Positions 29,942 through 56,102 of a stretch of DNA of 64,000 nt are shown piece after piece (within the stretch, counting starts at the first letter, position 1; each line of letters starts with the position of its first letter). The position numbers were made by a program, and so were the translations under genes. Origin of the DNA: Polytrichum commune (taxonomy: Eukaryota > Streptophyta > Polytrichopsida > Polytrichales > Polytrichaceae); assembly GCA_950295325.1 (NCBI GenBank), contig OX485804.1:68550033-68614032 (forward strand), in the 5' to 3' direction. The notes beneath the pieces are model-generated. The model worked only from the letters and a program-made list of their open reading frames with translations, made no database searches and was not told the origin of the DNA.

Positions 29942-29975
29942 ATGGGGATATTAACTAAAATGAGCCAATTGGGCC
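29942..29975 (+). repeat. Left terminal inverted repeat of giant element
   Basis: Identical for 23 bp to the right terminus read inward, then similar for about 10 bp (GCCAATTGGGCC versus GACAAATGGTCC). Two direct GGGAACGTG copies follow at about 30000-30020; the right end has one exact and one similar copy. Confidence 0.85.
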
Positions 29976-30600
29976 ATTATGAGACAATTCGTACCAATGG
30001 GAACGTGCATTGGGAACGTGGTTCACGAGTAAATATCCGTGAATTGCCATCATTGACAAGGTTTAGAACAAGAGGAAGGTCATCAACATAGACTAGGGCA
30101 CTATTTCATGCACATTGGTGTATATATATAAGCTAAAATAATGCTTATTCTAGCCCACATAAAAACTTAGCCCAGTTGTCACCATGGGTGTTCACTCGTG
30201 ACCAACCAACACCCCGCAACAGATGAGCCTAGTATATCCATAATACAACATAAGTCGATACCACTAAGGAACAACCATGCGCATGTCAACAACTGTATGC
30301 AAATATAATGGGCCTAATCATAAAAGCTATCATGGGCACTTAATACTACTCAGAGAATACAAATACATCTAACCACGAGTGAACGCCCGTGACCAATCAA
30401 CGCCATGCAACACACGATGCAAGATCCATAACACATGAAGGAAGGTCTACATATCATATCCGACTACACAAATGAGGGTCAAAAAATCATTTGATTGAAT
30501 CATAGATGCCACAGTGGGTACAAAAAATGTGAACAAAGTATATGAATTGTTGTATCCACGGGTGAACACCCGTGGAAAATCTATCACCATAAAGGTCCGG

Positions 30601-31145
30601 CTATCTACAAGAGGAGTATGAATCCTTAATCATTTTCAACATCTTGTCATGAGGTTGTCTTTGAGCTATAGTACATTGCTTGCGCTTGACTTCTTCAAGC
30701 CGTTTTTTCTCCTCCATCAAAACTGTAGCTTCTCGAAGTTGTTTCACCCTTGCAGCCACATAATCAGACATGGATGAGGTGGTATTGGGTGAACTACACC
30801 TCCAACATCCAGAACTATTTCCCGAGCCCGTGGGCTCATTGGGGTGAGTGGTTTGGAGAGAAAGGTGTCTCTTCACCCGAGCGCGTGTGACCGGACCCGC
30901 AACATCGACCGGAACAGCCTCCTCAACCGCGACCGGAACAGCCACCGCAACCGCGAGCGCAACATCGTGTGTTTGGAGCATATGTGTCTACCACAACAAA
31001 CGACAAATTGATATTAGAATCCCTGGGATGAAACACAACTAAAAAAATTGGGATTCATGTGGAAAATGAATTACCTTAGGGCATGGAGATGTCACTTCGG
31101 CGAAGTCGGCGTTAGCATCCGGAGGACGTTGTCGACATGGTGGAC
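30601..31145 (-). CDS. Small unidentified gene on giant element
   Basis: Terminal exon ~30989-30601 (ending TGA in SSCR) joins in phase to an upstream exon ending CCTAAG|GTAATT near 31076 (..DANADFAEVTSPCPK). The product has an Ala/Val-rich low-complexity stretch, then a basic RARVKRH patch, then a Lys/Glu-rich helix (SDYVAARVKQLREATVLMEE and on to KKRLEEVKRKQ) that may form a coiled coil. The start is uncertain. No family recognised. It lies between the left terminus and the phosphatase-ending gene, on the same strand. Confidence 0.4.
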
Positions 31146-31669
31146 TGGCAATATAGTTCTTAGGTCGCGTTTGGAATGGGGAATGCTGTTAGGATACAAT
31201 AACATAAGAGTCCATGGAAGAAGGACATTATGTGCAAGAGGAGCCCGTCCGTTGCCCTTTAGTAAAGATGAACATGTTCAAAACATATGAATTATAGCCG
31301 ACTAAGTCCTACATATTAAAATTCGCTATGACAACCATAATTCCCAAAAACACAACTAACATTGTCCAAGTGGCCTGATACATTCATTGAATCAACTACC
31401 ACATTGCCACGGGTGAACACCCGTGGGACAATGCCAGACATTCACTGTGGTCGGAAATAGTCGGGTATTCTCTAACACCGCAGTGTTGCAAAGTAGTAGA
31501 CTCCCAGTGAGATACATTCATGACCATGACATGTTTGCATGAAGAAAATCCACAAAACCAAAACAAGTTTCAAATGAAGTTGAAAGGCAACAAAGTTTCA
31601 GATCCACTCATTTCAAATACAATGTACCGATAGTGCAAATGTGCACTATAGGCGGCCCCAATAGGGAAT

Positions 31670-34600
31670 CTACATTAACATCTGAGCCTCTGGAACCATA
31701 CGGGCAGAAGTCAGTATTTTATGTCTAACTAATGATTGCTTATAAATCAGAGAACTTGGCAGCTCTAGATTGAAGGGTCCCTGTCCTGATGGATAAGGGT
31801 TGCTCCCCACAAAATCTGGCACATACTGTTGAGAACTCAAGAGCCTTTGCAGGTAACTATGCAGAGTATCCAAGCTTTGGTTTGACATAAATGGTACAGG
31901 GTTAATGTAGCTCCCAGGAGGGTTTGGGATGCATTTGTAAGGGGAGTCATCAACAAGTAATGTAGTCCTATGACTGGGTTGCTTCGTATGCGGCACTGGA
32001 TGCGTCCGGCTCCACTCAAAAAATGCGCACAGGTCTTTCATGAAGAAGCTTGAATCAGCATTCATAGGACTAGGAAGAACTTGTCCTCTCTCATCCTTCA
32101 GAGTGTGACACAATTCTTGCCCAAACACATACTCTGGATGTCTACAACCATTGAAGAAGTGCCGGACAATTGGCTGAAGATTCTTCATAAGCTTCGACGA
32201 CCAGATGACAACATGGAAGTTTGAGAGAACAAAACGCAGAAAGCGTCCCAGTCCTCTCCTAGGTATGAGGGCACTATATGGGAGAAAGAGTGGAACCAAC
32301 TCCCCAGTTATCTGAGGGCTATGTTGTGATTCAAGAGTCTTCCTGGTGTTGACATTGTCGCACTTTGTTGACCTCACCAGGATCCCGTTCACATCCAGCA
32401 CTAACCATATCTTCTCTCTCCGATGGACAACAGTGGTTGGAGAGGTGAGGATCTGGCGATGACAAAATTGAAAGTCATTGTAAAGAATTTCTATCTAAGG
32501 AAAAAGTATATTCTACATGATTTTTATCGAATGAAACAACACGTTGGGTACACATGAGTATGCAAGATAAAAGAATGCCTCCACATTTATGGATTAGTTT
32601 TGCGAGATCGAGGAAAATATCGTACCGAAGGTGGTATTCCGGCAGTGGCTGTATGACCTGTGACCACATGCACACATGACTTATGAGATCCACACGCTCA
32701 AACCCATAATCTCCCACGGGTGAACACCCGTGGGCACAATATCAAAAGTCCCTTATATAAATATTACTCGAGAGATAACAATTTGTATGGAAATTGAAAA
32801 GTATAAACAGGTGGTCCCACGGGTGTTCACCCGTGGGACCAATTGCATTCAAATAACACTATATATGATACCTTGAGCTTGGCTTAGGGGGGGATCCCCA
32901 CCATGTGCAGGGTCGTCATGAGAACTCGGTGGAATGACATCCCGTTCTGCCGCAACCAACACCTGTTGCAAAGACACTTTTAGAAATCTTGACGAGTTTG
33001 CTTCCACCGCCAAACACAATATAGCATTGGAAAGGGAGTATGTATTACCATTTCGGACGATGCCGGTTGACCCTCAGCAACACGTTCGACATGAGGGCTT
33101 GAGGACTCCGCAACTGCAACATCGACTTCCCTCCTTGGAGACTCTGGCACTCCAGTAATGTCAATGATCTCCAACGTAGAGTCCACAACACTGCCGGCTT
33201 GAGCGGCCGAGGACCCCGCGAATTGACCTCGTTCATCACGATGTTTGGGAGCTTCGAACGCTGTCCATCTCTTTCTCATTTTCTTTAATGCAGCGGCATG
33301 AAGAATATGTTTCACCTTCACTGCTTCACAAAACGCTGGTGTGGAGAGATAAGCGAACATCTTGTGATAATCGTACGACGTGTACAAATGCGCAAGATTC
33401 AATCGCACGTTCTCGGGCACATCTACCAAGTATTTGTCCACAAATGGGGCAAAATGCACCTTGTCCTTCCCATCCGATTCCTTGCCCATGTCAGGTCTCC
33501 CAGCAAACACCGGGTGAGGGTCATCAACAAAGTTGAGTTTCACTCTGTTGTACCCAGGCTTCCCATAATCCTCATCCTCGGAATCATCCGTCATGTAGTC
33601 CGCAAACGTCCCCCGAATCCGATGTGGAACTCGATCTCTCACCTTCACCCTCACGTCTAGTTCTACGCATCTTTCGGGCACATCGTCATCACTATCCAAG
33701 CATATGACTTCGGTTCGAATAACCTCCTCTGCTTCATTGGATGGTGCCGCTACAGTAGGCTCTTCTGCAACCACAACACCAGGTGAATCACGATTTGATC
33801 GCCCATGTCCTAGCACCTCGAGAACGGCAGCGGCAACGTCCTCAACAGGTGAGCTGACGTTCAAATCTGTGTTTGTCCCTTCAACATGCACAGCTTCAGA
33901 CATGATTGCATCCCGCGGAACATCCGCTTGGCCAGATTCAACCTCGCGATAAAGACCAGAATGCTCCGTTGCCTCCGAAGACCGCGAGTGATCTCCAACT
34001 CTAGCAGGACGTAGAGATGACCTTCCCCTTCGAGGAGCTTTCATTTTCTTTCTTGCAGTCGGTTTCGATGCAGACCTTGCAGCAGGATTAGCTGACTGCG
34101 GACGCTCATCCTCCTCATATTCTTCCATAGGTTGAACATCTAGTTGTTCTTGACTTCGTCTAGATGTGTCAAACTGTGCAAACCCGCGGCCGGGTGTAGA
34201 TGGGATCCCAGACGAGAAAGATCCCACAGGGTGATGGACACTGTGCTCGGCTTGTGGACGACCAACTTCCTCTAAGTTGGAAGCATCCTCTTGCCGCTCC
34301 TCCTCACCCTCCCCCTCCCCCTCCCCCACGGGTGAACACCCGTGGGGAACCTGCTCCGGGGACATGGCCTCCAAAGAGGCCTCCGCCATGGCTGACGCCT
34401 TGTAATTGAAGGCCTCCTCCTCCACCTCTGCCATGACCTCAGCCATGGCCTCCGCCAGTGCGTCGTCCATGACCACCTCTTCTTCCTCTTCCTCTTCCTC
34501 TTCCTCTTCCTCTTCGTCGGCCACTTCCTCTTCCTCCGCAGACTCCCCTAGGACAACAACTGGGTCATCTTCCTCCTCCACCTCTTCCTCCTCCACCTCT

Positions 34601-37600
34601 TCCTCCTCCTCCTCCTCCTCCTCTTCTACGTCCTCTTCATTTATGTCATTCGCACGCTTTCTTCCAATCTCGCGCTCAATGATGGAATCCACATCGATAC
34701 GCCCTTCTTCCTCTTCCAAATCCTGGGCAGCGAATTTTCCTTCCTCATTCCACCTTTGTATGCTCCAGTCAACTGCGGCAATCATCTTCGTCTTCGCCAC
34801 CTCTAGCATCTCTGCCGGCACAATATTCAACACCTTCATACCCAATGCCTGCAAAAACCAAGGCATGAGATAAATAACTTCTCAATCAAATTAGTCTACA
34901 TCCAAAAGCGAATAGAATTAAACCAATAGTCCCAACTATTTGTCTACCAACTAATTGTCAGGAAAGCTATCGAGAAGGTGGCTATCAACCAAGTGGATAT
35001 AAAGCAGGTGGATGTCTAGGCCCACGGGTGTTCACCCGTGGGCCTCCCAACCTGGTTTATGGTTAGGTTATCCAAAACACCATCCAAACCAACGATAATA
35101 TTCAGAAATTCAAGAACCACTTAGGGGAAAAGATGCTCATTACTTACATGTGCCACTATGTGCGCCTTATTGCCTCCACAAATATTGAGAAAAGAAGACC
35201 CCTCAAGACATGAAGGCTTGATGATATCTATGTAGGTCTGCATCCTCAACTCCCCCTTGAATAAACACTTGGCCTCCTCATTGGAATACGCCCTTTTCAC
35301 TGAATAACGTTTATATCGCCCCGGGTCATGGACGTCCAACATCTTCCGGCCTCCACAGAGCCGCACAGCCACCTCCGAACTTGATTCGCCCCTATTCGGA
35401 AAAATGCAGTTTGTAACCCGAAGAGCATTTGATTCGAAGAAGCAATCGCGAGATGCAATTTTCTCCTCTTTAGTGCCATGGTATAAGGCGTCACAAAATC
35501 TGGCGTTGCTCGGAAGGTGCGCCTTCAGCACATTGTGAATGAAATGCCGATCCGGATATTCTGAAATCACAGTCCACAATTGGGGGGAGTTTAAAATGCC
35601 TGGGAAATCACGACGAAGACCTTGCAGAGTGGAATCCATACACTCCTTCACACGCCCCCCAGTGTCTTTTCCCGCCTGGACTCCGGGGAGAAACCTTGTG
35701 TCCATGTACGCGTGCAGGACTGGTGCAAGCACTGTCCCACCACTGATCTTGTAGTTGTTGTCAATAGACAACACGACATGCTCGGGTGTAACCTCGGTGT
35801 TATGTGTACCTAAAATGTTCCTCACTCCTTCTTCAAACCGGTCCGGAATAGGTACTCTCTTCCTTGTGGGGTTCATAGTGCCAAGAAGGTACTCCGCTCC
35901 AAGCAAGTCTACAAGTCGTTCTCGCTGGAGTTTACCAAACTTATTCGCATACTTCCATACTCTCCAACAATCACGATCAATGGTCTCTTTCTGATCGATG
36001 TGGACAATGGAGTCGGGTCTAGACACTGTGCCATCGCGATATAAGTTTCATTCTTCTTTTTCCTGTTCATCGCCCAATCGCGCACAGTCTTCAAGGTATG
36101 TCGAGGGTGTTCCTCTCCATCTCTGGTGGTGAGGATTTGATTCGCTGCCATGTCGAGCTCCATCTCTGTCAAGCCCCGAAATTGTTTCAGGTCGTTCTTG
36201 ACCACCTTCTTCGACTTAAACCCCTTTGTCTCTTTCATAAGAGCTCCGGTCTTCGGGTCTACATAGTCACCACTCTCGTAATCCTTGAATATCCGCTCCC
36301 ACTTCCTCCATATGTCATCGCCCAATACAGGCAAGACGTGCTCCATGATCAGGTTGGTCTCCTTCTCCACGCGGAACGTCCACATGACGCACGTAATAAA
36401 TGCCTATATCAAACACCGGCAATGTATCAATCTCTATGAAAAAAACCTCCATGTATTTCCAGCAATCACCAACAACATGATAGTCGCCCACGGGTGAACA
36501 CCCGTGGGAGTCACAGAAATGAGAAATTCAAAAGTCACAGGTTTGAAAAATACCTTCCACTTCTTAAAAGCTTCCGTGTTGCTGGCCTTCTCGCGTACAG
36601 TTCGGTCAGGTCTTCCTCGCCTAATCCAGGTCTTCCTAGCGTGCTGAATGCACTCCGTAAATGACGGAAAGTGCTTCCTGTACTCACTATCCAGGTTCAG
36701 AACACCAGAGAGGTGGAACAGAGGGTCGTCATCACCTTCAGGGGCCCAGACCACATTACAAGGCCATTTCGAGAAAAACCTCTTCACCTCATCTGTGCTG
36801 CTAGGGTCATTCACATACTCGAGACAGGCTGCTAACGTGTGCTGTCCATTTACCACGTGGAATGATTTGTCCTTCACCTCCTCAAAATTGAATGGTTTAG
36901 TTCGCCTATCCGAAGGAACGATTGTCAAGAAGTTGGGATGAATCTTCGGAATGAAGGCATAGTTGAATAACCATGTCTTGATCTCCTTCAAATGCGCCTC
37001 GGATATGGGTCGGCAATTATACCCTGCATCTCCCCGCTCTATATTGTCAATATTGACATAGCCATTCACGCCTTCACCGAATATCCACACCCTTTGGTAC
37101 TTGTTCTTGAACAACTCCATATCCATCAACCTGTCTCCAACCGATTTGTCTGGAGGCCCATGCATTGATCGCTTGGGAATCTTCTCGAGTTCAAGAAATG
37201 GACTATCCTCAGGTGTTTTCTTCTTGCCTCTCTTGGAGACAACATCCTGGCCGTCAGTGTCTTCGACAATCAGTGGTTGTCCTTCATCGGGTCTCGTCTT
37301 CTTCCTAGACGAGGTGGCACGTACATCAGCAAGATCCTTCCTCTTGCCATCGCGGATTTCCTTCTTCTTCAAAGATGCTTCCAACCTTGCCGCCTTTGCC
37401 TCCTCAACTATAACCTTCACTCGTGCTAGAGCAGACTTGTAGTCCTGCTCGATCATTACTGACCTCTCCTCCACGGACTTCGTGTGCACATTGGTCTCGC
37501 AATATAGTATACAATAGGTGAGGAAATCACCGTTCAGTAAGCAGATGTTCTCTCCCTCATTGTTGAGCTCTTCATTCACATCCGCATATGAGAAAGTCTC

Positions 37601-38651
37601 CACGAGTGCTGCAACCTTGAAGTCCTTCTTCCGTTCAGGCGACTTGCACATTATCAATACCCGGCTCCCATCCGTTTGAATGTCCAGTACATGTTTTGCC
37701 TTCATGTACTTTCTCCATGTGGAATTGGGCCCAGTCCTCGTGTAAAGCGAGAGCACCGTTGTCTCTCCGAAACCACTATACTGCATGAACCATTGCAAAT
37801 CTGGGCCCAAAACTTCAACATCGTAATTCACCCGTCTGCCCACACCTCCCGATACTGCAGAAGACAATGCACATGTAAGTACTCAGCATAGCCCAATATT
37901 ATCACGGATTCTATAACTCATATAACATTGACGTGCACATAGGTATTGTGGTTATACCTTTACGGGCTGTTTGCTTAGTTCTTGCCATCTCAATTGAAAT
38001 GAGAGAACACTTCGACACCTCTATGTACCTGAATGAAACACCAACTGTCTATCACATGTTTATGTCTAAAACCTTCAAATGCTTACAGAGACACACCGAA
38101 TTTGTCTACATAGAAAATCAAAAAGACATTTATCAAACAAAATCTCCCACCCAGGTGAGTGCAAAGGCTCACGGGTGAACACCCGTGGGCACTCCTAACC
38201 AGGTGAGGGCAAAGGCCCACGGGTGAACACCCGTGGGCACTTTCAACCAGATGAGGGGAGAGGCCCACGGGAGGGCTGATTTTTCACAAAGTTTTAGCTC
38301 ATCCACGTCCAAAAATCTTGAATTGAAAGGCAAAAAAAATCTCAACCCGTCCCGAAACCGGTAATATCTATACAAGTTAAGTCTCCCTCAAGTTGGTACA
38401 AAATTAGGAAAAAAGAACAGAAAAAAACGAAGATGTCGACATGTGACCAAGGACATGTTAGGGACCTTGTGAAGAATCACCACTGCCCACGGGTGTTCAC
38501 CCGTGGGCCTCTCCACCTTGTGGGTGCAAAAGCCCACGGGTGTTCACCCGTGGGCACTTCAAATATCCACTTTCAGATAACCGCGTTCACACTAACAGAA
38601 AAACTGGGATTTATGTAATGGACACTCACCAGGGTTCTTTGGGGGGACCAT
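31670..38651 (-). CDS. ParB-like / methyltransferase-like / FCP1-phosphatase fusion
   Basis: Proposed exons (minus): 38651-38630, 37854-36554, 36403-35148, 34848-33049, 32962-32872, 32657-32626, 32452-31670; about 1,760 residues. All junctions are GT-AG and in phase, except one apparent 1-base loss near 36020 inside exon 3. Domains in order: a leader region with a basic coiled coil; a ParB-like fold (RPISEAHLKEIKTWL, FHVVNGQHTLAACLEY, about 36840-37030); a permuted methyltransferase-like region with SIDNNY where a DPPY motif is expected and EGSSFLNICGGNK as motif I, continued across an intron by ALGMKVLNIVPAEMLEVA; an acidic linker rich in Glu runs; and a C-terminal NIF/FCP1-type HAD phosphatase (WLVLDVNGILV, VVIWSSK, LLVDDSP). 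The nucleophile motif DVNG retains its first Asp. Fusion of the phosphatase rests on one 32-bp exon and could instead be a separate gene. Methyltransferase motifs are degenerate. Confidence 0.65.
32980..34848 (-). other. Acidic linker exon of the fusion gene
   Basis: The 1.8-kb exon 5 encodes motif-I-adjacent sequence, then long Glu/Asp tracts (34430-34640), then a disordered Ser/Pro/Arg-rich region and a final ordered part (LAHLYTSYDYHKMFAYLSTP, about 33370). The repeated TCC/TTC codons on the plus strand create a meaningless Ser-run ORF there. The exon ends at GAAATG|GTAATAC near 33049. Confidence 0.6.
34325..34346 (-). repeat. Family A palindrome inside coding exon
   Basis: A perfect family A copy lies within exon 5 and is read in frame as PHGCSPVG. 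It neither stops nor shifts the frame. It is the only copy found in coding sequence and sits in the disordered acidic linker, where an insertion would be tolerated. Confidence 0.85.
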
Positions 38652-39600
38652 GTCAAAATTCTTTCAATACGAATGTGGTTTCCTGCACAAAACAAAACAC
38701 AAGAGCTATTGTTTCAAACTATGCCTACATGTGCAATACATTCATACTCTCAAACATCTCAATAGGTAAATTCTGCCCTCACATTCTTCTTGCAATCTGG
38801 TCTCACATTTTTATGAACATAACCTCTTGTCATTCATCTTGCATTCTGATTTGAGCATTTTTCTCACATTTCAATCAACTCTTCACACCCAAGCATCACA
38901 CAACTCACATGCAAATCTCTAGTATTTTTGGGTTTGAAATTCTTCAAGCAATTCAAACCCTAGTGCACCAGAAATTTGAAATGCAAGCAAGAGGAAGAAT
39001 GCAAGCAAGAGGAAGAATGCATGCAAGAGGAAGAATGCATGCAAGAGGAACAATGCAAGCAAGAGGAAGAATGAAATTGAAAGAGAAAGCAAAAGAGTGA
39101 AAGAGAGTGCAAAACATTGAAAGAGTTCAGAAACTTACAAGCTTGTGGGTTCTCAATTCTTCATGATTGGAACTTCCCTCCACTTGCTTCAAGGTCGCCT
39201 TCCTCTTCTCCACATCTCACCTCTACCACATGCTGGATTGAGCAAGAAACAACTATGTTCACCAAGAAACTATCACATATTCCAAGAAAATGCACACTGA
39301 ATCTATTCCAGGGTTTTCTTGAGAAGAGAATCAAGACAAGGAGTACAATAATTGAATGAAGAGAAGAGAATGAAGAGAATGAAGAGAAGCAAAGCAAGTT
39401 CAGAATTGTGGGAGAAGAGTTTTGCAAGAGCATTCCAGAAAAGTGGAGAGTGGTGAAGGAAAGAGAGAAAGAATTGGGAGAGGAGAATGAGAGAGAGGGA
39501 GAGAGAGGGAGAGAGAGGGTGCGAAATGTTGCCATAATGACGAGCGGGTGGAAGTCGCATGTCACATAATGCCTCATTAGTACGAAGGGACATGATGGAG
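38652..39600 (-). promoter_or_regulatory. Probable 5' region of the fusion gene
   Basis: Upstream of the ATG at 38651, the minus strand shows a long pyrimidine tract (CTCTCTCCCTCTCTC, about 39490-39520) and CT-rich stretches at 39100-39430, typical of plant-like promoters or 5' leaders. An 18-bp tandem repeat (AGAGGAAGAATGCAAGCA, five units, 38982-39072) lies between. The antisense ORFs here are low-complexity and not called. Confidence 0.35.
38982..39072. repeat. 18-bp tandem repeat, five units
   Basis: GCAAGAGGAAGAATGCAA-type units repeated about five times with few changes. Confidence 0.9.
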
Positions 39601-39689
39601 GAAATCTCGGGACGCGAAGAGATATGCGATTTGGCGGCTAAAGTACGTTTTGAGGAGGGATGGGCGGTATGATGGTATTAGGACGTAGC

Positions 39690-40190
39690 GATAAAAAATT
39701 ATTGGTACTTTGTAAGGTTCGCCCTATTTGTATGATAATTATTAGTACTTAGTAAGATATCTAAGTATTAGTGAGATAATTATTAGTACTTAGTAAGATA
39801 TCTAAGTATTAGTAAGACAATTATTAGTAATTAGTAAGATAACTGCGTATTAGTAAGATAATTATCAGTACTTAGTAGGATAACTCATATTAGTAAGTTC
39901 ATTATTAATACTTATTAAGATAACTCATATTAGTATGATTGATATTATTTTTATTGTTAGTAAATTGTCATATTCACTCTATTGTTAATATTAGTAATAT
40001 TAGTAAAAATGATTTATAGTGATTAATAGTAATTACCAGTAATAGTAACTAATAGTGACTAGTAGTGAATAATAGTGAATGCTAGTGCTTCATAGGTCAT
40101 TATAGTCATTAATAATGTTTAATAGTGATTAATAATTATGAATTACTAATGGCTGACTAGTAGTGATTTATAGTAATAATAATAATCACT
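39690..40190. repeat. AT-rich short-period repeat (TTAGTA units)
   Basis: TATTAGTACTTAGTAAGATA and variants repeat from 39690 to about 39960, passing into TAGTGAATAATAGTGA-type repeats to 40190. Non-coding, simple-sequence-like expansion inside the giant element. Confidence 0.8.
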
Positions 40191-40199
40191 TTCAATCGA

Positions 40200-43100: not shown

Positions 43101-43559
43101 CATGAGGTATAACTTAGAGCCATGTCATGATGATGGATGAGTTCATCCATTGACCTTCTCATGTTAGCAACTTGTGATGCAACATTGTCATGGATGATTG
43201 CTATATTGTCTATTGTGATATAGTGATAACGTACATGTTCATATTAAACGGTTTTGTTAATTCCCACTACATTCCCAAGGGTAAGATGCTTAAGCTCACT
43301 ATTGGCAAGTGTCATGTGTTTCATTTTAATATTTAAGAGGAATACATCCTTAAGCATACTAATGGCATGTCATGTCAAGATTTTAATAAGTGCACTCAAA
43401 CACCCAGTGTCATGTGACGACACTTACGGTGTTGTTGTTAATCTGCAATATAACATAGCATACCCTTCAAAATAGGGGTTTCCATTACTGTGGGTTTTTC
43501 ATCTGTATATTTGGATGAAAATCCAATGTAAGGCAACGAAAGTACAATAATATTACAGT
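40200..43559. other. Interior of giant element, no supported gene
   Basis: AT-rich. A 98-codon plus-strand frame at 41839-42135 (MPPKYGMFYIGRVQKIRVKV start) is the only one with protein-like composition and has no recognised family; I do not call it a gene. G/C runs occur at 41604-41613 (10 G) and 42908-42922 (15 C). TATAGGGTGC / ATAGGGTACC motifs recur here and near 43.6 and 47.5 kb. Confidence 0.4.
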
Positions 43560-44060
43560 GGGCCACACTAAAAATGAACAACATGACTTAGAATAATATA
43601 AGGTTTCAAAAATGGCAATGGACATCTTTAAACTACTATAGGGTATGGAAGAATATGTAATTTGGAATTATATGAAATGCAAGGCTTTTTCTATTAACCC
43701 AAGGTTGAAAATGCTAATGAAATAAATAACCCTAAACCCTAAACCCTAAACCCTAAACCCATTAGTGTGGTAGTCCACTTAGTGTTGGACCTTACTAGTT
43801 GCTCGCCATCTATTTGTGTCCTACTCATATGCAATTAGGAGTCTAGCAACAACTAATTCTCTTTTATCGCGCATCCATGTGCAAACAACCACTATTTTAT
43901 ATGGGGTTATTACTTTCAATTTTTTCTTCACATGCTATGATTATGTAGTTTTCTTAGTCGGGTTAGTAGAAAAGGGCCTTGCATTAATTACAAATCCAAA
44001 TAATCGATTTGTTCCATACCCTATAGTACTTTAATGATGCCCAGTGTCATTTTTGACACC
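43560..44060. repeat. Inverted repeat with telomere-like loop
   Basis: Sequence at about 43630-43710 (CTACTATAGGGTATGG .. TGCAAGGC..TTCTATTAACCC) returns inverted at about 43940-44035. The loop holds 33 bp of CCCTAAA repeats. Related copies lie near 47490-47680 (direct, also ending in telomere repeats) and 49495-49700 (inverted). This looks like a non-autonomous repeat family. Confidence 0.65.
43728..43760. repeat. Interstitial telomere repeat (CCCTAAA)
   Basis: About 4.7 tandem copies of CCCTAAA, the plant-type telomere unit. It is embedded in a repeat family and followed by ordinary sequence, so it does not mark a chromosome end. Confidence 0.95.
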
Positions 44061-44084
44061 CCATATTATATTTGCTTTAACATG

Positions 44085-44260
44085 GGCGGACGTTAAATAC
44101 CCCCTCACGAACTTTTGGAGGTATCTAATCTGGGTTGGGGCAATCTTGTAGAGAAAATTTCTAAACCCGACCAAAAATTGCATTCTTGAAGGCCGCTTGA
44201 CTACAAATCCCATATTGAGTGCACTAAAATCCGCTTGACTTACCATAAATAACTTATATT
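44085..44260. mobile_element. Third fragment of the GGCGGACGTTA fold-back family
   Basis: Starts GGCGGACGTTAAATACCCCC, then CACGAACTTTT, CCCGACCAAAAATTG, GCATTCTTGAAGG and CCCATATTGAGTGCACT, matching the arms of the 17085 element with internal deletions. It shows the same family inserted inside the giant element. Confidence 0.75.
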
Positions 44261-47200
44261 TGTCATTCTAATGATAGATTAGTGCAAGTGTTTATAAGAG
44301 AATAAGGTATAAATAAATGATATGTTATTTGGAATTAGACTCGTGGGACAATGTTATAGATGGGGTATATATTACTGAGAAAATCATAAGTTTCTGACTA
44401 TAGCCTATCTGAATTATTTAATAATTTATCCTCATCACATATTGTATTATCTTTCAAATCACATAGTGTATAACCGTTACTTTTAAATAAATATAATTAT
44501 ATGATACTAATACTAATACTAATACTATTATGCAAATACTAATAATAACAATACTAATACTAATATTGAATTGAGTTTTTTAGTTCACCAATTTATCATA
44601 AGGTGATATATATTATTGTGCCATATTACAAATGTTTGAACAATCACACATGTGCAAAATAAATGAATTATGAACAAAAAGATGTCTATGACAACACTTC
44701 ATAATTATATATTGCACACATTGATATCTTACAATATTTATCAAAATAACCATGTGAAATTCAAAGCCACATCATGGCCTTGGAAACATCTCATGGGAGG
44801 TTGGAAAATAGGCTTAGAGCATCCAAGGCCACATCATTGCCCCTTGCCAACAAATTAATATTTATAAAATAACTATGAGGGAGAAAGTAGGTCTTACATG
44901 CCAACTCGGAGGTATTTCACTAAAGTAAGCTCCATCCGAGCTTCTTGATGGACTCATCCGATTTTTGTTACCGGATGACTTTACTTGAGTGCCACGAATC
45001 CCCGGCCATTTCAAGTGGGCTTGTACGGTTAAGGTATTTGTTGACTTTCATATTTACGGCCTCGAATGTCCTTCCCAAAGTGCACATCTAAGGGTACTCA
45101 TGTAAGTATAACCATGCTATCACATAGAGCCTTATTATAACCTAACATAGTCAATCGCACACTCTCAAAATATTTTCGGTCATTGTAGGGTCGATAGTGC
45201 ACATGGATTGACAACCTAAGTACCAAAGTACTAAATTTGAGCAACAACAAATCCCACATGGATGCAACATCTATGGCTACACGGTCCAAAATTGAGCTTT
45301 TATATTCTCCTTAAAGGTGATTTCAAAAATACTTTATGGCAAGTCCACAAGTCATACCCATGGATTGGAGCATGACATTATGGAAAGGTTACTTAAAGGT
45401 TACTCAAAGGTATTTGACCCCGATTTTAAAGAGTAGTTTAATAATCTCTAAATAGAAATCTCTAGTCCTATTGTTACCAATGCTTTCGACTTCCCCTCCC
45501 TTGGTCTCCCTCCCCTTAGTAGATGTTGTATTGAATCATCCCATGATACCTACCTATGGTGCAACAATTAGAGTTTATTGCATTGAGTACTGACTGTTGT
45601 TTTGAGAGCTCACATGCTACATAACTAAATAAATTCATTTTTTATTTTAGCAATTAGTTAAAAAAGACAATTAGTTAACAAAGATAATAAATTCATTTTT
45701 TTATTTTTTTTCCCAAAGCGGGTCACGGGGGCTTATGAGTGGGGCTATGTGCGTACATGCACATGAAGGTTTTACAGGGGCATGGGCATATGGTTTGCAA
45801 GGGTTAATGTATGTGGTTGGGTTCATGCAAGATATGAACCCAAAATGATTCATACGGACTGGTGTAATGGGTCAGGATGGCACATGCCCAAACTAATAAG
45901 GTATGTGGGGCTCATTGATAGTTGTAGTTTGAGGAGGGAAACTTGACTAGGTTGGTATTCTAGCACATGGAAATTGATTTTCATTTGAGCGGAGAAACCT
46001 TGGTTTTTATATACATTGTTAGTGTGAACCATAATTTGTTGTATTTACATTGAGAGTTCATGATGCCATGTTCTTACTATTCAAACCTTGCCCAAAGTTT
46101 TCTTAATTTATGGAGATTTTGTTTTTCATTTTTCTAGCATCCCATGATTAAAAATCAATCAGTCTAGTCAATCAACAACTAAAGTGCGTCAGTACAAGGA
46201 TGGCCACGTTTCAACTTGTGTTTTGGGCAACGAGCCGAATCTGCTACCCCCCCCCCCCCCCAACCACCATTGCCACTCCACATGGGAGTGCTCAGTCCAA
46301 AAGATGCTTGAAGATACCGGCAAAACCTTCACCAACGTTAGAGAACTCTATTTTGTTTCACCAAAACGATTGGTACATGAAAGTGTGCCCTAACTTGGGC
46401 TAGACTAATTTGGGGTCAATTCAACTAAATAGGGTTTCCAATAAACTTTGAAAAATAACCTCCTTACTACATACTAGTTTAAAGTTTCATTGTTGGATGA
46501 ATGAGAGTAATATGCTCGTATGCGATAATCCCATTTCGTTGGCCAAAAAAACATTGATATGTATATAGGGCCTCACATTAGAAGCCCAAGCCCTTGAGGA
46601 TGTAAATGCTATCACAAATTCCCCATGCGTAGGCAAAGCCTATCAATCCGAGGGCAAAGACAAGAAAACATGCTCACATACAAGCACACCCAACATTCAT
46701 CCAAAAACATTTTATTTAAAAATTCAATTGGTTTGACACCGTAATTAGCTTCAAAGTTACGGAATTAGTCTAAACCAAGGGGGTTTAGTTTTATATTTTC
46801 TGTCGGATCGATGAGAGGTACTCTTGAATGTGAGGTTTTTCTCCACATATGGAAGAGCACATCCTGAAAAGGGGAAGAAATTTTTATTAGGAAAAATTGA
46901 GTATGTTTGCTCTATAATGTACATGAGTTTGGGGGTGGTGGGGGGGGGGGGGGGGGGCTCATTATAGGGCTTATTGCCTTCCTTTTGGAAGCCGGGCTAT
47001 GTTGGGTGCAACTATCTATTTGGGGCATCCAAGTTTGGGAAGAGGGGGTTGACATTGCAACCATTGTATCTCATTGCATCTATTAAGGGGTTGTATGTGT
47101 TTGTTTTGTATTGTTGTTTCAATGTATGTGTTGTGGCATAAGGTTTAGGTTAAGGAGTATATGTCCTCTAGCTGCATTGGGAGTTCTAATCACACACGTG

Positions 47201-47479
47201 GTGTCCAAACTAAGTCTACCCAAACATGTGCATTATCCAAGGACATGTCAAATGATTGGAGTCGCGTTTTTCTACAGCCTTGTCGATCGGTCAGCCTTAA
47301 GCCATCATTTCGACATGGGATCTCAAAACGGTCATCCAAAGGGCATAAGTGGTGGGCCCATAAGTATATAGCGTAAAACCTAGGAAGTGCAGCTAGAAAT
47401 GTAGTGGACACATACCGGGGGGGGGGGTTGTGATGTATTGGAGTAGAAATATACGTGCGAAAAATTGAGAGGGTATATG
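44261..47479. other. Interior of giant element, no supported gene
   Basis: AT-rich, with (ACTAAT)n-like triplet repeats near 44500-44560 and long homopolymers at 46247-46261 (15 C) and 46940-46957 (18 G). No sustained coding frame. Confidence 0.4.
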
Positions 47480-47489
47480 GGGACGTAAA

Positions 47490-47680
47490 ATGAACAAAAT
47501 GATTTAGAATAATATAGGGTGTCAAAAATGGCGTTGGACATCTTTAAAGTACTATAGGGTTTGAAATAATAGGTAACTTGGAAATATAAGTAATGCAAGG
47601 CCCTATCCTACTAACCCAGAGCTGAAAATGCTAAGGAAATAAATAACCTTAAACCCTAAACCCTAAACCCTAAACCGGTT
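47490..47680. repeat. Second copy of the telomere-ended repeat
   Basis: Parallels 43565-43760 for about 190 bp (GAACAAAATGATTTAGAATA..), ending in about 26 bp of CCCTAAA repeats at 47651-47676. The copies differ at roughly one base in six, so the duplication is old. Confidence 0.75.
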
Positions 47681-47767
47681 TATAAATGGATCAACATCTC
47701 TAGCGTAGTGCTATAAATTTGATGATTTCCCCAGTGTAAATAGGGCATTGACGCCCGAGTTGGCCAC

Positions 47768-47798
<31 letters not shown>

Positions 47799-47832
47799 CA
47801 TACATACATACATATAGACACACACACACATA
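47768..47832. repeat. TA / CATA / CA microsatellite
   Basis: Consecutive (TA)n, (CATA)n and (CA)n tracts. Confidence 0.95.
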
Positions 47833-48264
47833 TTTGTGGCAAAGGAACTCTATGGTATGTTGCTACATGTCCAACATCATGATTGATAAGAATGACAAGT
47901 GATGCTAAAAGTTGAAAAATGGGTTGTGCAAATCAAAGAGGTGCCATGAAAATGGATTCTCTCTCCCTCTCTCTCTCTCTTTGGTGGCATTTTGCATGTT
48001 TCAGTCAATACATGCAAATTCATTTTGTAACATGTGGCGCTTTCAAGTCAAAGATGGATTAACCCTAGGCTTGAGCTATTGGGAGAAGGGTCGAATTGTC
48101 AAATTGTGTATAATGCCATAGTAGGAGTCTAGGTAGGTATTGAGTCATCACATCCTATATCATACTATTAATGGGGGTGGGCGAGGCAAGGTTGTGGCAA
48201 GTTGACAAGGCTGGGCATGGTCACAAATCATTGGTGCTAAATTTGAGGTCACATGAGAAAGTTA

Positions 48265-48465
48265 TTAAATGGGCATCTTGGATAACTTAACTTGATAAAA
48301 CCACCACAAGCCATTGTGAACCGTTGATGATGAGGTTGAGGTTGTTTGGGAAGAGTGTTCAACAATCATCTTGGATAACTTAACTTGAAAAAACTGCCGT
48401 GAACCATCGGGGTTTAGGTTGAGTTTGAGGTTAAGGTTGAGATTGTTTGGGAAAGGTGGTCCACT
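48265..48465. repeat. ~100-bp tandem duplication
   Basis: ATCTTGGATAACTTAACTTG ... GGTTGTTTGGGAA occurs twice in tandem (about 48270 and 48372), with a partial third near 48523. Non-coding. Confidence 0.7.
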
Positions 48466-48469
48466 TAAC

Positions 48470-50455
48470 TTCATAATTATAAATTCAAGGTTTTATGTTT
48501 TGATGTAATAATTCTCAATGGTCATCTTCGATAACTTAAGTACATGATTGTGACCTTAGGGTTTTGATGTTTAATGTTTCAAAGTCGTGAACAAAACCAA
48601 GAGGTTTATAAAGGAAAGTGACACATACTCCTTTGGTAAGATGAATCCACAAAAGTGCAAACTCAAATTCATGATTTAACAAAGCAATTTAGCGATAGGT
48701 TCTTCCAATTTCATTGGAAATATGAACCAAGTTCATTATTTAAACAACCAATTTCAGTACATGTTGTGAACAATTTCATGATTTGGTACCCATATTCAAA
48801 ACTTCACAAAATCAATTTTAGGAAATGCATAACTCTATTTCACAAAGAACATTACATCATGTATAGGATTATCCTAGTAAACAAATTGCTCCCTATTCCG
48901 CACAACTATACACTACACTCCAAAAACGTTATGCGCTTTGCTCACGCTACCAACACTCTTCCCATAATCAAACCCCCAACTACACTACGTACACTCTCAA
49001 ACCCATGAGATTACGCACTCCAACTATGTTGGGTATGAGTTGTTTGCTTTGATGTACAATAATCAAAGACCAAAGGAAAAATGACATTGCTTGCTTCTAA
49101 CTCCAAGGTAGTGTAATGAAGACCAAAGAAAATTTGACATCAAGGCTAGAGGCTTCCAAGTAAATACAAAACAATGAGAAGGCAAAGAATGCGAAATGAG
49201 GCGGCGAGAATTTGAGAAATAAAAAAACCATAAAGTGTGAACTTGATATGGAAGATTCACAAAGTTGATAAAGATAAATGTCCACTATCATGAAATTGAG
49301 GTGTGCCACATGTCAAGTCGGTTAAGAAGAATGATCATGGGGATACAACAAAACATTTGCTCATGAAATACAACATTGGACAATGGGGTGGAGCGAGGCA
49401 AGTTGACAAGGCTAGGAAAGTATAAGTATCTTGGGGGGGGGGCAGTGTGTTAAAAAGTTAAGGATATAGGTGCGAACAACCATTATTTTATAGGGGGGGT
49501 GTTACTTTCAATTCTCTTATTTTTCTCACAATGATGCTATCATTATGTAAATTTCTACTTTGGGTTAATAGAAAAATGGCTTGCATTACTTATAATTCCA
49601 AATTACCTATTATTCCATACCCTATAGGACTTTAAAGCTGTCGAGCATATTGGTTGATACCCTATATTACTCTTAACTCCATTTATAATTTTTAGCCCCC
49701 ATGTTTTTAAAATACCCTATCATTTGTTCGCACGTATATTGCTACTCCAACCAATGACTACCCCCCCTCGAGAGAAGTATATGAAACTATTCCGAAGTTG
49801 CAACACAATGGGCCACAATGCTAGTTGCTCTAAAAGGAGCAGGCTAGTGTTGAGCTTCAAACCTTGAATTTGGGTGCAATCATATTCCCAAATTAGACTG
49901 CAATCATGAAAGATAATAGTAGCTTTGACCGGGTTATCCTTGCACCTTGCCCACAAAATAGGCATCCTATTCACAATTATAAAATATAAAGGAACTATAA
50001 CTCTGGTGAGAGAATCCCATGTCGTTGTTAACTCTTGCGGATGAAACAATACCTAACCTTCATACTATTCATTTTGCAAGGGTGCCCATCATAAGTGGTG
50101 GACCTGTTATGTGTGCACATGTCCTTATGTAATTTTGGCATGAGTATGCTTGGTAGTGGTATGAGGTGTATGCAAAGGTTATCCAATGATCATTGGTACC
50201 GCAAAGACTCTCCTTCGCCTTGTAACAAATTTTCACTCCATGTACATACGATGTAGAACCCCACTACCGAAGGTCATCATTATTCAATATGAGGAAGGTT
50301 AGAACGTGATTAGCTAATAGCGATAGGAATTGGAGGGAATGACGTCTATGTACTTACGAATTTGGAGGGAATGCCTTGTACTTCCTCATGAGAAGTTGAT
50401 GGCCATGCTCACGACCTATATAAAGGCCACCATTTGGAGGGTCATTTCTTTCTCC
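48470..50455. other. Interior of giant element, no supported gene
   Basis: Contains G runs (49433-49442 and 49493-49499) and a diverged inverted copy of the telomere-ended repeat family near 49495-49700. Short ORFs have no recognisable motifs. Confidence 0.4.
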
Positions 50456-51435
50456 TCATTTGAGTCCACCCCCCTTCACCCTTGAGGAGCAACCATGGAG
50501 AGCGTGCCTCACATGAGTGAAGAGGTTGGTTTTATAACCCCAATGTGCATCCACTTTCCCACGGGTGCACCCGTGACAACACTCTGGCCGTACCCCTCCT
50601 GTACGGCCAGTCTGCCACGGGTGTTCACCCGTGGGAGACTCTGGCACCCGGTTTGGGGCCCCCACGGGTGTTCACCCGTGGGAGACTCTGGTACCGGGTT
50701 TGGGGCCCCCACGGGTGTTCACCCGTGGGAGCTTATGGTTTTTATTTCGGTTATCCTAGCATATGTCAGAATAGAAGTTATCCATATGCTCATGTGTGTG
50801 ACAAACTTTCTAGTAGTAGATGTCAGCATGGTAGCCTCCCACGGGTGAACACCCGTGGGAGAATCCGGCACCAGCATGGAAGCCCCCACGGGTGTTCACC
50901 CGTGGCAGTTCATGATTTGTATTTTAGTTCTCCCTACATATGTGTGGTTATAAGATAGGCATGTATCATGTGTGTGACATACTCAATAGTTGTATATGCA
51001 ATTATGCTTATTTGTAAATTTCCTGCTGAGTATGTGAAATATGTTGTCAATGGGTAATTGGTACATATTATTACGAGTTGGGAGTTTCGTGATGCATTAT
51101 GATAAATGATGACGATGATATTCGTTAAACTGGAATGTTGACACTATCCTGAATGGCAACTATTTCGCTAGCACTTGGGCCAGCAGATGTGACACCTACA
51201 TGCATAGTAATAATTGTACACAAGTAAGTGTTAGGGGTGATAGTTTTGGTGTTTGGGCTTTGTGGAAACTGGTAATAAGGGTCATTCTCCCAATGGGGAT
51301 ATGATAAGTAACACATACTTCACTTGAGTTGTGTGAAGTGAGGTGTAAAGCTCACCCCTATATGAATGTAAATATTCTCTTGAGATGTCAATGTTGTCCC
51401 CCACGGGTGAACACCCGTGAGCTTCTGGTCAATGT

Positions 51436-54415
51436 GTGTTGACATACTTTGATATCGATGTTCAGATTCCACATTACATTGGACTGTCGAGGACGGACTT
51501 GAAGGGGAAGGCCGTTGTGCTCTTTGATGATGAGGGCCATGCTTTGTGTGATGGATTGATTTGCAACACAAATCCGTTGGATTGTGTTGACAATAGCATC
51601 CTAGGGGCTGAGGATGTTGGAGTTATTATCTTGAACCCAACTGACAATGTTATTTCGCAAGATTGGGAGAATACGCTGCACCGATGGCCACTTTCACTCA
51701 CCAAATTTGAAGGACATACATTAGCGGAAATATTGTTGGTCCATCATAATGCGACCCGCGAAGTTCAAAGTCATCGGCGCTTGCTTGGAAAACGCCAATA
51801 CAACACTGTGAGGATGTGTGCACCTCGGCCACCTGGGAAGAAAATTTGGGGAGCCACTGAGGAGCATGCGCGGATGTTATCAGCGGTGGATTGTTGTTCC
51901 GAGCATTGTTGCCAGGTATTCCCAAGGCCTTTGTTGATGAGTATTCGGGAACACTACTTCGCATTGCCATTCAATGCTCGGAAGCTCATAGCCCTGTCGG
52001 TGTTCCAATCGATCCAGAAACATGAGCACAACGGACGTGAAATGGTGCAGTTGGAAGGGAGAACAATATGCACTCGAGCATGGATGAACATCTATATGAT
52101 ATCAAGGGCACAATATAATAGGAACAAGGCTGAAAGCTTGATGGGGGTTAGATCTCGAGATCATGGAAATACAGGAACTAGAAAACCACGGGCGAATACA
52201 GTGCAAGCACGAGCCACCCTTGGAGTATTGGTTGAGGGTAGGGCGGACGCCATGCCCCATATGACTCGGACTCTTCCAACTGGTGAGAAGATAGGGACGG
52301 AGATGCTCCCTGTGGGAACAACGTGGTGCAACCTATTGCAGGAAGTGAACAACTTGGACGGAGACCTAGGGTACACGCCTATCTCCACGTCCACCTTCAG
52401 CCGCCTACATCGACAACATTTCAAGCAGTATGTTATAAAGAGCCCCGGCGACAACTTCTCGCGTTGTGGAACTTGTGCAGCATTCAAGGATTTGTTGCGA
52501 ATACACACAAAGAACACAACTGGTCACTTGGCCATCTCGAATGCTAGCCTTCGTCATCTAACATTGCAGGAGGCTCATAGAAACAGTTACTATAAAGATA
52601 GGATTTTGTCAAAGTATGCTCCCAATGAGGTGCTTTGTATAATCCATGACAAAATGGATTATGGGAAAACGGCTCTTCCCGTCTTCGCGCACAAAAACAA
52701 ACGTGTTGACAAATACGAGCGATTCCCCATATCCATTGCGGGGATGATTGCACATGGTCACTCAGATGTGAATTATGCGCATTATGTCCTTGATATGTAC
52801 CCATCCGATGCCAACTTCACTATCACCTCGATGATGAAGTTGCTTTGTCAACTTGAGGTACAACCTGTTTGCTCTAGTAGACACATTCCGATTTCGTCCA
52901 TAGGTGATCCTTTACACGACGCATTGGTGGTTGGTGTAGAGAAGTGTTCAGGAGTACTTCCCTTGCCACCGCCCGCAAGTATTCCTCCTACAGGTTTGCC
53001 ACCCCTCCTCCTTGTTCAAATGGACAATTGTGCGAAGGACAACAAATCAAAATACAACATGTTGTTTTGGTCAGCTCTGACTGCAAAGGGAATTTTTCGG
53101 GAAGTCAGGGTGTCTTTCCTTATTGTTGGACATACGCATGAGGATGTGGATGCAATGTTTGGGAGGTTTGGACAAAGGCTGAAGATTGAGGATTGCCATA
53201 CACTCCCAGACCTCATGGCATCGTTCATGGCTGCTGGGGAACCCACTATTGTCCCGTCCTTAATCCACGAGGTTGCAGATTTCAAGGAATGGGTGAAGGG
53301 ATACTACAATGAGTATGGTCAAGATCGACTTATTGGGCATTCCAAGGCGCACCAATTCCGTTTTTATGTAGATCCTCAAGGAGTGCCATTGATGCAGTAC
53401 AAAGTGTATTGTACAGATCCAAGTTGGGTGCCTGATGGAGGAATTGCTCTTTGGAAGGTGGACCCTATCACAAAGAAGACCATGGTCCCAACAGGTTAGT
53501 GGGTCCCTTGTTTGTATTGCTTTGGAAGTGCACTAGAAAATACATGGTGTGAAGTATGTGGCCCACGGGTGATCACCCGTGGGCAGTTAGTCCGTGGTAT
53601 TGCTCCGAGCTCATTGTATGTTTGTTTTTGTAGGGTGCCCCCGTCCCGTTCCAAAAAGGGAGATGAAAGATTCCGTGAACATAAAGCTTGGGGTGCAAGG
53701 TTTTATTAAGTATTGGAAGGATACGGCAGATCAAGATAGTTCGGGTCAATATATGGAGTCCATTGCACCAACAATTTTATATTGGGAGAATGTGCTTGCG
53801 GCTATGGATCAACCTTTACTCCCAACTCCATCTGAACGTAGCGAGCCATTCTGGCCAGCTACACGGTTCTCCATTGCACCAACCCTCCATGTGGATAATG
53901 TGCATCTACTTGAGGAAAACATCACTGATTATGCTTACGTGGGGCCAGCTAGTTCTCGACCTGTTGAGACCTTCCGTCCCGGCGCACATATCAGGATTGG
54001 CCATTATGTGTTACTACGTCCTAGTGAGGATTGTCCTAATCCAGTGTGGATGGGACGAGTGATTTCTGAGCCGAATTTGGCACATATCGGTCCTAATCCT
54101 CGTTCCATTGAGATTGTCTATTATGTACCGGTCCTTGGCCAAAGGAACAAGAAGACCTTAGACGAACGTTATGAGGAATGGGACACGGCAAAATCTTTTC
54201 GATGGACGAGGCTCAAGGACTATGCACCACAACATCAATCCCTAGATTGTGTTGTGGCATCATGGGCAAGACAAAGGAATGCGTCCGATGACAATGTTCT
54301 CATCCCAGCTCGGCAAATTCTTTTCGCAAAGGATAATTTAGATCGATGCACTAGAGGTGAGAAAATGACTGATGGAGATACTTTCGAGGATGGGGTACCA
54401 ACAGAAGACCTCTAG
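51436..54415 (+). CDS. Putative DDE transposase, DUF7869-like
   Basis: Exon A 51436-53494 and exon B 53634-54415 join through ACAG|GTTAGT...TTTTTGTAG|GG with phase preserved, giving at least 946 residues. The listed start is only where the open frame begins after a stop; no early ATG exists, so at least one 5' exon is missing, possibly near 50493. The core reads IIHDKMDYGKTALP (Asp ~405/408), LLLVQMDNCAKDNKSKY (Asp ~530) and VGHTHEDVDAMFGRF (Asp ~570), spaced like an RNase H-fold DDE/DDD catalytic triad. The last two resemble the eukaryotic DUF7869 family from memory, not from a search. The C-terminal ~200 residues (GHYVLLRPSEDCPNPVWMGR onward) look like a BAH- or Tudor-like chromatin module. 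It is the only transposase candidate in the giant element and points toward the right terminus. Confidence 0.7.
53495..53633 (+). other. Transposase intron carrying a family A palindrome
   Basis: 139-bp intron. The 22-bp palindrome at 53562-53583 (centre AT, hence fully self-complementary) occupies its middle. Confidence 0.75.
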
Positions 54416-54874
54416 ATTAAAGTTGCCTTGCTCATTCCTGGGTATCTACGGGTGGACTCTCATGGGTGGGCTAGATGGTTGACACCATCTAGCATGTTTG
54501 GAGCTCAATTTTAATTTTGTGAGCATTAATTAGAGAGCCGTAGACATTGACATTTGTCCCACGGATGTTCAAACTACCACTTTTAAAGGCATCTTTTTTT
54601 GTGAATTTTCATGTGCATTGTCATATTAGCCAACATGTTTAATATGTGGGAGTCGTCCAATGTCGTCCAATGTTTAATAGTCCACGGGTGTTCACCCATG
54701 GAGTGTAGGCACAATCCTTTTGTCTTCCTTGATGGGATCCTCCATATTACAATTGATTGTTTGCCCGGTTTCATTGGAACACTTGGTTTGTGGAGGCTAA
54801 AACCTCTACGGGTATTCTCTCGTACAAAAAAATCAATCATTGCGTTCCCATCACGTTCCCCACATTAAAATGAG
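54416..54874. other. Subterminal region of giant element, right
   Basis: No gene. Contains degraded family A palindromes and GGGAACG-like motifs leading into the right terminal repeat. Confidence 0.5.
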
Positions 54875-54909
54875 CGGACCATTTGTCTCATTTTAGTTAA
54901 TATCCCCAT
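54875..54909 (-). repeat. Right terminal inverted repeat of giant element
   Basis: Reverse complement begins ATGGGGATATTAACTAAAAT then GAG, identical for 23 bp to the left terminus. Confidence 0.85.
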
Positions 54910-54913
54910 CCTA
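54910..54913. repeat. Target-site duplication of giant element, right (CCTA)
   Basis: Second CCTA. It lies within exon 8 of the interrupted gene. Confidence 0.8.
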
Positions 54914-56099: not shown

Positions 56100-56102
56100 T
56101 CA
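56100..56102 (-). other. In-frame TGA within exon 6
   Basis: Both sides stay open in the same frame (..YIEKWRCLL, stop, NKAYTLILRGSPSF..). Splicing around it would need unsupported sites. A C-to-T change at a CpG would explain it. Confidence 0.75.

Follow-up and report, generated by a model that had tools for sequence, protein, structure and literature searches.

A 64,000-nucleotide stretch of Polytrichum commune DNA (contig OX485804.1, positions 68,550,033 to 68,614,032; here the window, C2:68550033-68614032 in a genome scan covering 407.8 Mb in 64 contigs) contains at positions 29942-54909 a recently mobile giant cut-and-paste DNA transposon. Three loci of the genome match the LEAFY C-terminal domain (PF17538), as befits a plant lineage, LEAFY being a marker of land plants and related algae. 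Its transposition is close to certain, and it moves as a 25-kb unit generating 4-bp target-site duplications. We consider it probable, taking the parts together, that this mobile element is of the Sola (Sola-1) type and that it encodes a ParB-like protein binding palindromes specific to its own family. What is new is the operator-like palindrome code, which is the most novel feature of the element and was treated as a detail in the original prediction, a reading of the window sequence that preceded this analysis.

A 25-kb element that transposes as a unit

The boundaries of the element and its main structural parts are as follows.

29942-54909: complete giant transposon, family A, 24,968 bp, with terminal inverted repeats (TIRs), target-site duplication, 34 paired copies and empty sites
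29938-29941: left target-site duplication, CCTA
54910-54913: right target-site duplication, CCTA
29942-29975, plus strand: left TIR, 34 bp
54876-54909, minus strand: right TIR, 34 bp
38900-50500: AT-rich central region with internal repeats and no family-A palindromes, largely absent from the 20-kb copy B

The two TIRs are 91% complementary over 34 bp and identical throughout their first 23 bp, so that the 23-bp identical termini of the original prediction are found within somewhat longer repeats, and the CCTA duplication is present as it described. A genome scan with the 20-bp terminus, allowing up to 3 mismatches, returned 343 matches vs 62 for a reversed control. Among the 92 sites with 0-1 mismatch, adjacent termini no more than 45 kb apart were paired as +/- in 34 instances, and as -/- and +/+ in one instance each; the spacing is 24.7-25.6 kb in 18 of the 34 inward-facing pairs. 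Both flanks of 20 hand-chosen family-A/B pairs were checked for duplications, and 18 of these copies have perfect 4-bp duplications of 17 different sequences (TGTA occurs twice), the duplication in the remaining two agreeing at 3 of 4 bases as judged by eye. Mispaired ends, used as a control, had 4 bp in common in 2 of 380 cases. The transposase open reading frame (ORF) has at least 67 genome matches, with certain loci split in pieces, and at least 28 of them, including the window's own, are 98-100% identical over 691-692 residues; these counts are lower bounds, the best 64 of 2204 first-look candidates having been scored.

When the flanks are rejoined without the element a minus-strand reading frame stays open, and a 344-bp query representing this joined empty site gave 40 scored genome matches (of 77 candidates), 38 of which cross the junction; the other two correspond to the right flank of the element in the window itself and to a partial copy. 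Near full-length matches (query ≤6 to ≥338) account for 25 of the 40, the best being 98% identical at C3:58780214. The target was therefore a single member of a multi-copy gene, and the flanks are two halves of one exon as first proposed. The insert-free copies that the original prediction had sought in related strains were thus found, although as copies of the target gene within the same genome. Paired termini with 4-bp duplications, for which it had proposed a genome search, and the empty sites together uphold its description of a giant ~25-kb TIR transposon with coding passengers. That an assembly artefact or segmental duplication has been mistaken for transposition is so improbable that we reject it, given empty sites and perfect 4-bp duplications of such varied sequence.

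The centre of the element contains 41-bp tandem repeats together with larger direct and inverted repeats and CCCTAAA-type runs (39725-39928, 43571-47676 and 49552-49767); these are largely missing in copy B and may be nested insertions carried along. At C1:19773860-19882354, one plus-strand terminus is followed by two minus-strand termini with many palindromes, an arrangement that fits nested or chimeric copies. In subfamily B, at C6:40285727, C7:40433055 and C3:27773165, one terminus starts ATAGGG, not ATGGGG, and these three pairs span 19-20 kb and have transposases that are 94% identical.

Element genes and placement among known transposons

The genes recognised within the element are listed here.

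31670-32494, minus strand: NIF-type phosphatase ORF, 274 aa (Pfam PF03031, E 4.6e-11)
32980-34881, minus strand: 633-aa ORF, acidic and of low complexity, probably belonging to the ParB-like/MT gene as its 3' part
35121-36403, minus strand: conserved 'MT' region, split in the window copy by a break in frame into ORFs 35909-36403 and 35121-36047
36434-37882, minus strand: ParB-like ORF, 482 aa, with a GQH motif; its hidden Markov model (HMM) family is present at every element family examined
51421-53499, plus strand: transposase candidate, main exon, DUF7869, 692 aa (Pfam PF25273, E 2.4e-46)
53591-54415, plus strand: probable last transposase exon, an ORF of 274 aa with no domain match, the splice inferred by eye

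We infer that the DUF7869 protein is the transposase and that it joins both ends; within the 692-aa ORF, families A, C and D all retain D410/D413, D535 and D575/D577, which may be catalytic. The ParB-like/methyltransferase-like/phosphatase gene of the original prediction is really at least two genes, of which the NIF phosphatase is identified by Pfam and the ParB-like part is recognisable at the level of motif and HMM, whereas the methyltransferase label is unsupported. The MT region has no Pfam or PDB match, and its conserved NxxGGxK stretch resembles an S-adenosylmethionine motif by eye only. In copy C a single ORF spans the MT region and an acidic part; A3, B and C have an open MT frame, which in A2 is interrupted. 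The ParB-like name reflects the GQH region, one weak PHROG match and a parallel with Ectocarpus described below, the alignment of these proteins giving a single chance-level match in PDB (E 0.32). No transposase relatives were matched in phages or viral_contigs, and 39 pattern matches of the ParB-like alignment to viral_contigs yielded none that was confirmed.

Purifying selection maintains the element genes. Ratios of nonsynonymous to synonymous substitution (dN/dS) calculated by Nei-Gojobori between subfamilies A, B and C are 0.13-0.22 for the transposase (0.19 for A-B, 0.13 for A-C), 0.27 (A-B) and 0.31 (A-C) for NIF, 0.20 for the ParB-like gene (A-B, with A-C saturated), and 0.19 (A3-B) and 0.12 (A3-C, unreliable with dS above 2) for MT. 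Ratios between near-identical A copies are higher (0.29-0.83) and rest on few changes.

Family D (C6:22398001 onward, about 15.5 kb) has NIF(-), MT(-), ParB(-) and transposase(+) in the same order as A, at identities to A of 37% for NIF, 24% for ParB and 38-51% for the transposase, with its MT detected by HMM. It has its own inverted repeats, imperfect and about 29 bp long, with a TAAG/TAAG duplication, and family C has a 31-bp perfect inverted repeat with a GAAT/GAAT duplication; in copy D2 the duplication at the ends does not match (boundaries by eye throughout). In each of A, B, C and D the ParB-like ORF lies on the strand opposite the transposase. Within 30-kb neighbourhoods, close ParB matches are accompanied by a close NIF match in 49 of 51 cases (random mean 0.48) and by a close transposase in 42 of 51 (0.56); similarly, 42 of 65 close NIF matches have a close transposase no more than 30 kb away (0.57), and 7 of 53 distant NIF matches are beside a distant DUF7869 match within 20 kb (0.53). 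These counts used 59 of 67 transposase, 67 of 92 ParB and 118 of 143 NIF matches plus the distant DUF7869 matches, most of those omitted being short or second pieces. The passengers resemble conserved functional components more than captured cargo, and the idea that they are randomly captured genes is rejected by the dN/dS ratios and the conserved order.

The element is most likely of Sola (Sola-1) type, a placement made from published descriptions. Sola elements are reported to have a DDD transposase, 4-bp duplications and TIRs of 11-1124 bp, to be mostly 2-9 kb with some exceeding 15 kb, and to occur in the moss Physcomitrella (PMC10741241). The duplications found here are of this length and the TIRs (34 bp in the window, 31 bp in C, about 29 bp in D) are within this range. 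Giant DNA transposons are reported from the brown alga Ectocarpus (PMC12477816); among them a Sola-1 family of 21.5 kb has a ParB-like gene on the strand opposite to that of the transposase, and the authors suggest that such ParB-like proteins may bind and modify their own element. The same opposite-strand arrangement as in this Sola1-1_Ec32-like subgroup is present in our element, with the ParB-likeness at motif/HMM level. Sola1-1_Ec32 differs in having one 1104-aa protein of ParB plus DNA methyltransferase, as far as its description extends, whereas no methyltransferase domain is detectable in the window element; the main text of PMC12477816 contains no word starting 'palindrom' and no 'phosphatase'. 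The Sola elements of Physcomitrella and others (PMC10741241, PMC9033089) share 4-bp duplications and variable inverted repeats with ours and are reported with a DDD transposase, but most are 2-9 kb and the passages concerned mention no passenger set or palindrome code.

The original prediction of a new superfamily is not established. We regard a superfamily outside Sola as the less probable placement, with perhaps a quarter of our expectation: it is favoured by DUF7869 being the sole domain match of the transposase candidate and a name not met in the literature searched, and disfavoured by 4-bp duplications, a TIR length inside the reported range, the aspartates conserved in the candidate and the position of the ParB-like gene, on the strand opposite the transposase as in the giant Sola-1 elements reported from Ectocarpus. 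Starships are likewise giant and carry several genes, and are reported to be classified by a tyrosine recombinase (PMC12134995), in contrast to the DUF7869 candidate, TIRs and 4-bp duplications here. Neither a tyrosine recombinase domain nor a protein-primed DNA polymerase or retroviral-type integrase was found in the 9 element ORFs scanned, in which an intron-split gene could be missed. The latter two are the enzymes of Polinton/Maverick elements. VANDAL elements constitute another superfamily, Mutator-like with duplications of about 9 bp, and the window element is not filed with them because its duplications are 4 bp. The available passages of PMC6431247, PMC10294476 and PMC4455052 hold nothing that alters the placement.

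Family-specific palindromes and the ParB-like protein

The element contains near-perfect inverted repeats of 20-22 bp, partly in tandem arrays, which form two groups.

30183-38552: left palindrome group, 13 sites, consensus CCCACGGGTG-NN-CACCCGTGGG with no more than 2 mismatches in the inner 16; 4 sites at 38170-38552 lie upstream of the ParB-like ORF, and 2 at 32715-32835 upstream of NIF
50616-54700: right palindrome group, 8 sites, 6 upstream of the transposase ORF, 1 just past it and 1 near the right end

A search of the window for CACGGGTG-NN-CACCCGTG identifies 21 sites with no more than 2 mismatches (18 exact), all 21 of them inside the element, and none in shuffled sequences, which bears out the private palindrome family noted originally. 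Genome-wide there are 819 exact sites of the type-A palindrome CCACGGGTGNNCACCCGTGG (control 0), and among the first 50 of these 42 are on contig 1 within three intervals bounded by TIRs, and 8 are outside. Further palindromes were found by a scan using no prior sequence, and the half-sites fall into eight types: CCCACGGGTG in A and B, CCCACGGGCG in C and locus L066, TTTACGAACG in D, GTTCCTCTCG in G, CTTCCACTCG in H, CTTTCACTCG in I, GTTTGGGTCG in J and GGGGTTTCGG in E. The G palindromes have 2-3 copies per 10 kb with exact 8-bp arms, and 6-11 at up to 3 mismatches. None of 100 Markov shuffles (ten stretches, 10 shuffles for each) had a top palindrome count above 1. When types were counted across families at up to 3 mismatches (J not in the table), each was confined to its own family barring A/C and H/I cross-matches and 4 G-like sites that are also in H. 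Exact sites number 3737 for D and 9231 for J genome-wide, with none for the controls. The abundance of the J palindrome (GTTTGGGTCGNNCGACCCAAAC, at L068) suggests that related elements account for a considerable share of the genome. A degenerate ParB-like gene at L067 is accompanied by few C-type sites.

The conservation of these sites, their avoidance of ORFs, their upstream arrays and their co-variation with the ParB-like protein provide evidence that they are functional, as judged from sequence comparison. Between the window copy of A and copy B, 4 of 342 palindrome bases are changed (1.2%, the sites having been chosen in the window copy), vs 1060 of 5599 in other noncoding sequence (18.9%), 1010 of 8182 in ORFs (12.3%) and 180 of 798 within 25 bp of a site (22.6%); the 2-bp palindrome centre is changed at 11 of 38. 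Across eight stretches 15 of 173 sites are in listed ORFs vs 51.5 expected, the acidic ORFs being outside the list, and family A has one further palindrome inside its acidic ORF. All 8 stretches, representing 7 palindrome types (E not among them), have an array no more than 1.2 kb upstream of the ParB-like ORF, and all 4 with a transposase to compare have one no more than 1.4 kb upstream of the transposase ORF. These position counts used presumed starts of 3997 for H and 3790 for I (the stop-to-stop ORF starts being 3316 and 3763) and ended the H MT at 7400. The family E array is likewise upstream of the E ParB-like exon.

Half-site difference follows ParB identity across 8 families, with a Mantel r of -0.84 that none of 20,000 permutations equalled, and -0.875 (p 2.5e-4) without family E. 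The pairs A-C, H-I, G-H and G-I have ParB-domain identities of 81%, 73%, 72% and 64% and differ by 1, 1, 2 and 3 half-site changes, respectively, while the other between-type pairs have identities of no more than 45% and at least 4 changes; the A3, B and F comparisons repeat the A-C pattern at 75-79% identity. Locus L068, picked solely by its neighbouring transposase, held as predicted a new palindrome type in 25 exact-arm copies, with a ParB-like gene (E 3.4e-52) and an MT gene.

We therefore lean, by a modest margin over doubt, towards a private address code, used across a whole set of giant plant transposons, in which each family's ParB-like protein and its own palindromic operator arrays at gene starts would be self-regulating or self-shielding; self-recognition through the ParB-like protein is likely, as far as sequence can tell. 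The ParB-like protein is predicted to bind its family-specific palindromes, arrays of which stand upstream of three ORFs (ParB-like, transposase and NIF), in the gap separating the ParB-like ORF from the MT ORF, and close to the ends; by binding it would allow the element to regulate its own genes and stay distinct from its relatives. The likeliest benefit would be protection from host silencing, as VANC provides for VANDAL elements, the main alternative being KorB-like autorepression; organising a long element is a further possible purpose of the code. From its family one might guess that the NIF phosphatase acts on the transcription machinery of the host.

A number of observations weigh against this interpretation. 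The ParB-like proteins have no ParB match in Pfam or NCBIfam, so that their ParB-likeness is at the level of motif and HMM; 1 of 10 members matches the ParB-like phage family phrog_1033 (E 0.13). Single-sequence structure models are poor (pLDDT, the predicted local distance difference test, of 38 and 32). The MT frame is broken not only in the window copy but also in A2, and 6 of 34 family-C sites are inside the long MT/acidic ORF. ORF starts differ from gene starts, and upstream arrays could sit in 5' introns. All of the element genes diverge together, so that co-variation does not single out ParB as the binder, and shared descent alone yields part of the correlation between ParB and half-site. 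Sites of different types are rarely alignable (A to C 2 of 19, H to G 0 of 10, I to H 3 of 9); in the aligned A-C pair one site has a single C-type arm and one is degenerate, and in the three I-H sites, which are tandem units, both arms are changed. Lastly, among the matches listed none of 16 distant ParB matches is near a transposase or NIF match, with one of these loci, L062, carrying a NIF-like stretch.

Two other explanations of the palindromes have been considered. The stronger, to which we give something like a one-in-five standing, is that they are bound by the transposase, or by another, unrecognised protein of the element, and serve in assembling the ends. The TnpA sites of CACTA elements are a parallel for transposase-bound repeats. 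Some palindromes are indeed less than 1 kb from both ends (30183-30574 and 54683-54700), and the joint divergence of the element genes would suit any of them as the binder; however, the sites do not cluster at the ends, it is upstream of the ParB, transposase and NIF ORFs that the main arrays stand, and the ten-kb stretches chosen by ParB alone (G, H and I) have an array upstream of ParB. It is rather unlikely that the palindromes act as DNA or RNA structures such as a replication origin, a terminator, or a hairpin or small-RNA source: near-perfect and partly tandem inverted repeats would suit such a role, but the half-site sequence is itself conserved between A and B beyond what complementarity requires, with the 2-bp centre free to change, and the sites are mostly outside listed ORFs.

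The interrupted gene and parallels for a proposed palindrome code

The gene into which the element inserted has features of a further family, designated E.

54914-57784, minus strand: interrupted target gene of another ParB-like family, E, with a ParB-like exon at 57236-57784
about 54914-55166 (right half) and about 29850-29941 (left half), minus strand: broken exon
57947-59067: E palindrome GGGGTTTCGGTACCGAAACCCC, in 7 copies whose inner 18 bp match exactly, most of them spaced at 136-137 bp, on the upstream side of the E ParB-like exon

The exon hit by the element appears to belong to another ParB-like gene, as the ORF at 57236-57784 encodes a GNH-type version of the ParB-like motif and its strand and order suggest that it and the broken exon are one gene. 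A gene of giant-element type thus seems to have been interrupted by another giant element. Family E is rated weaker than the others, its palindromes forming a ~136-bp tandem array, with none in the left flank and no transposase or NIF match in either window flank around the element. The left flank contains at 21947-22213 three copies of a further palindrome, GGTGAGGCACATGCCTCACC (GGTGAGGC), possibly representing another element family.

Among the literature matches listed there is no report linking palindromes to ParB-like transposon proteins. The KorB/ParB system of plasmid RK2 has dispersed operators. Its ParB protein is reported to be required for partitioning and for transcriptional repression (PMC5577506); this is a bacterial plasmid, and the likeness is one of description. 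The VANC proteins of Arabidopsis VANDAL elements, as described in PMC5735166, have in common with our proposal an element-encoded protein, a family-specific motif, noncoding arrays and co-evolution of protein and motif; the VANC21 motif is of 9 bases in arrays of one orientation, in contrast to the 20-22 bp palindromes here. Canonical ParB/parS systems have a recognisable ParB domain model, unlike the ParB-like proteins of the window.

Fungi, algae and some animals are the best-known hosts of giant DNA transposons, and here a single plant genome holds dozens of near-identical ~25-kb copies together with many relatives. The proposed operator code bears on two questions: how an element of very large size coordinates and protects itself, and how related selfish elements within one nucleus avoid cross-acting. 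As many as eight natural pairings of protein and site would reveal how DNA specificity shifts in a ParB-like protein, and the system, if our interpretation is true, would be an independently evolved counterpart of VANC anti-silencing, with a ParB-like protein and parS-like sites in a eukaryote.

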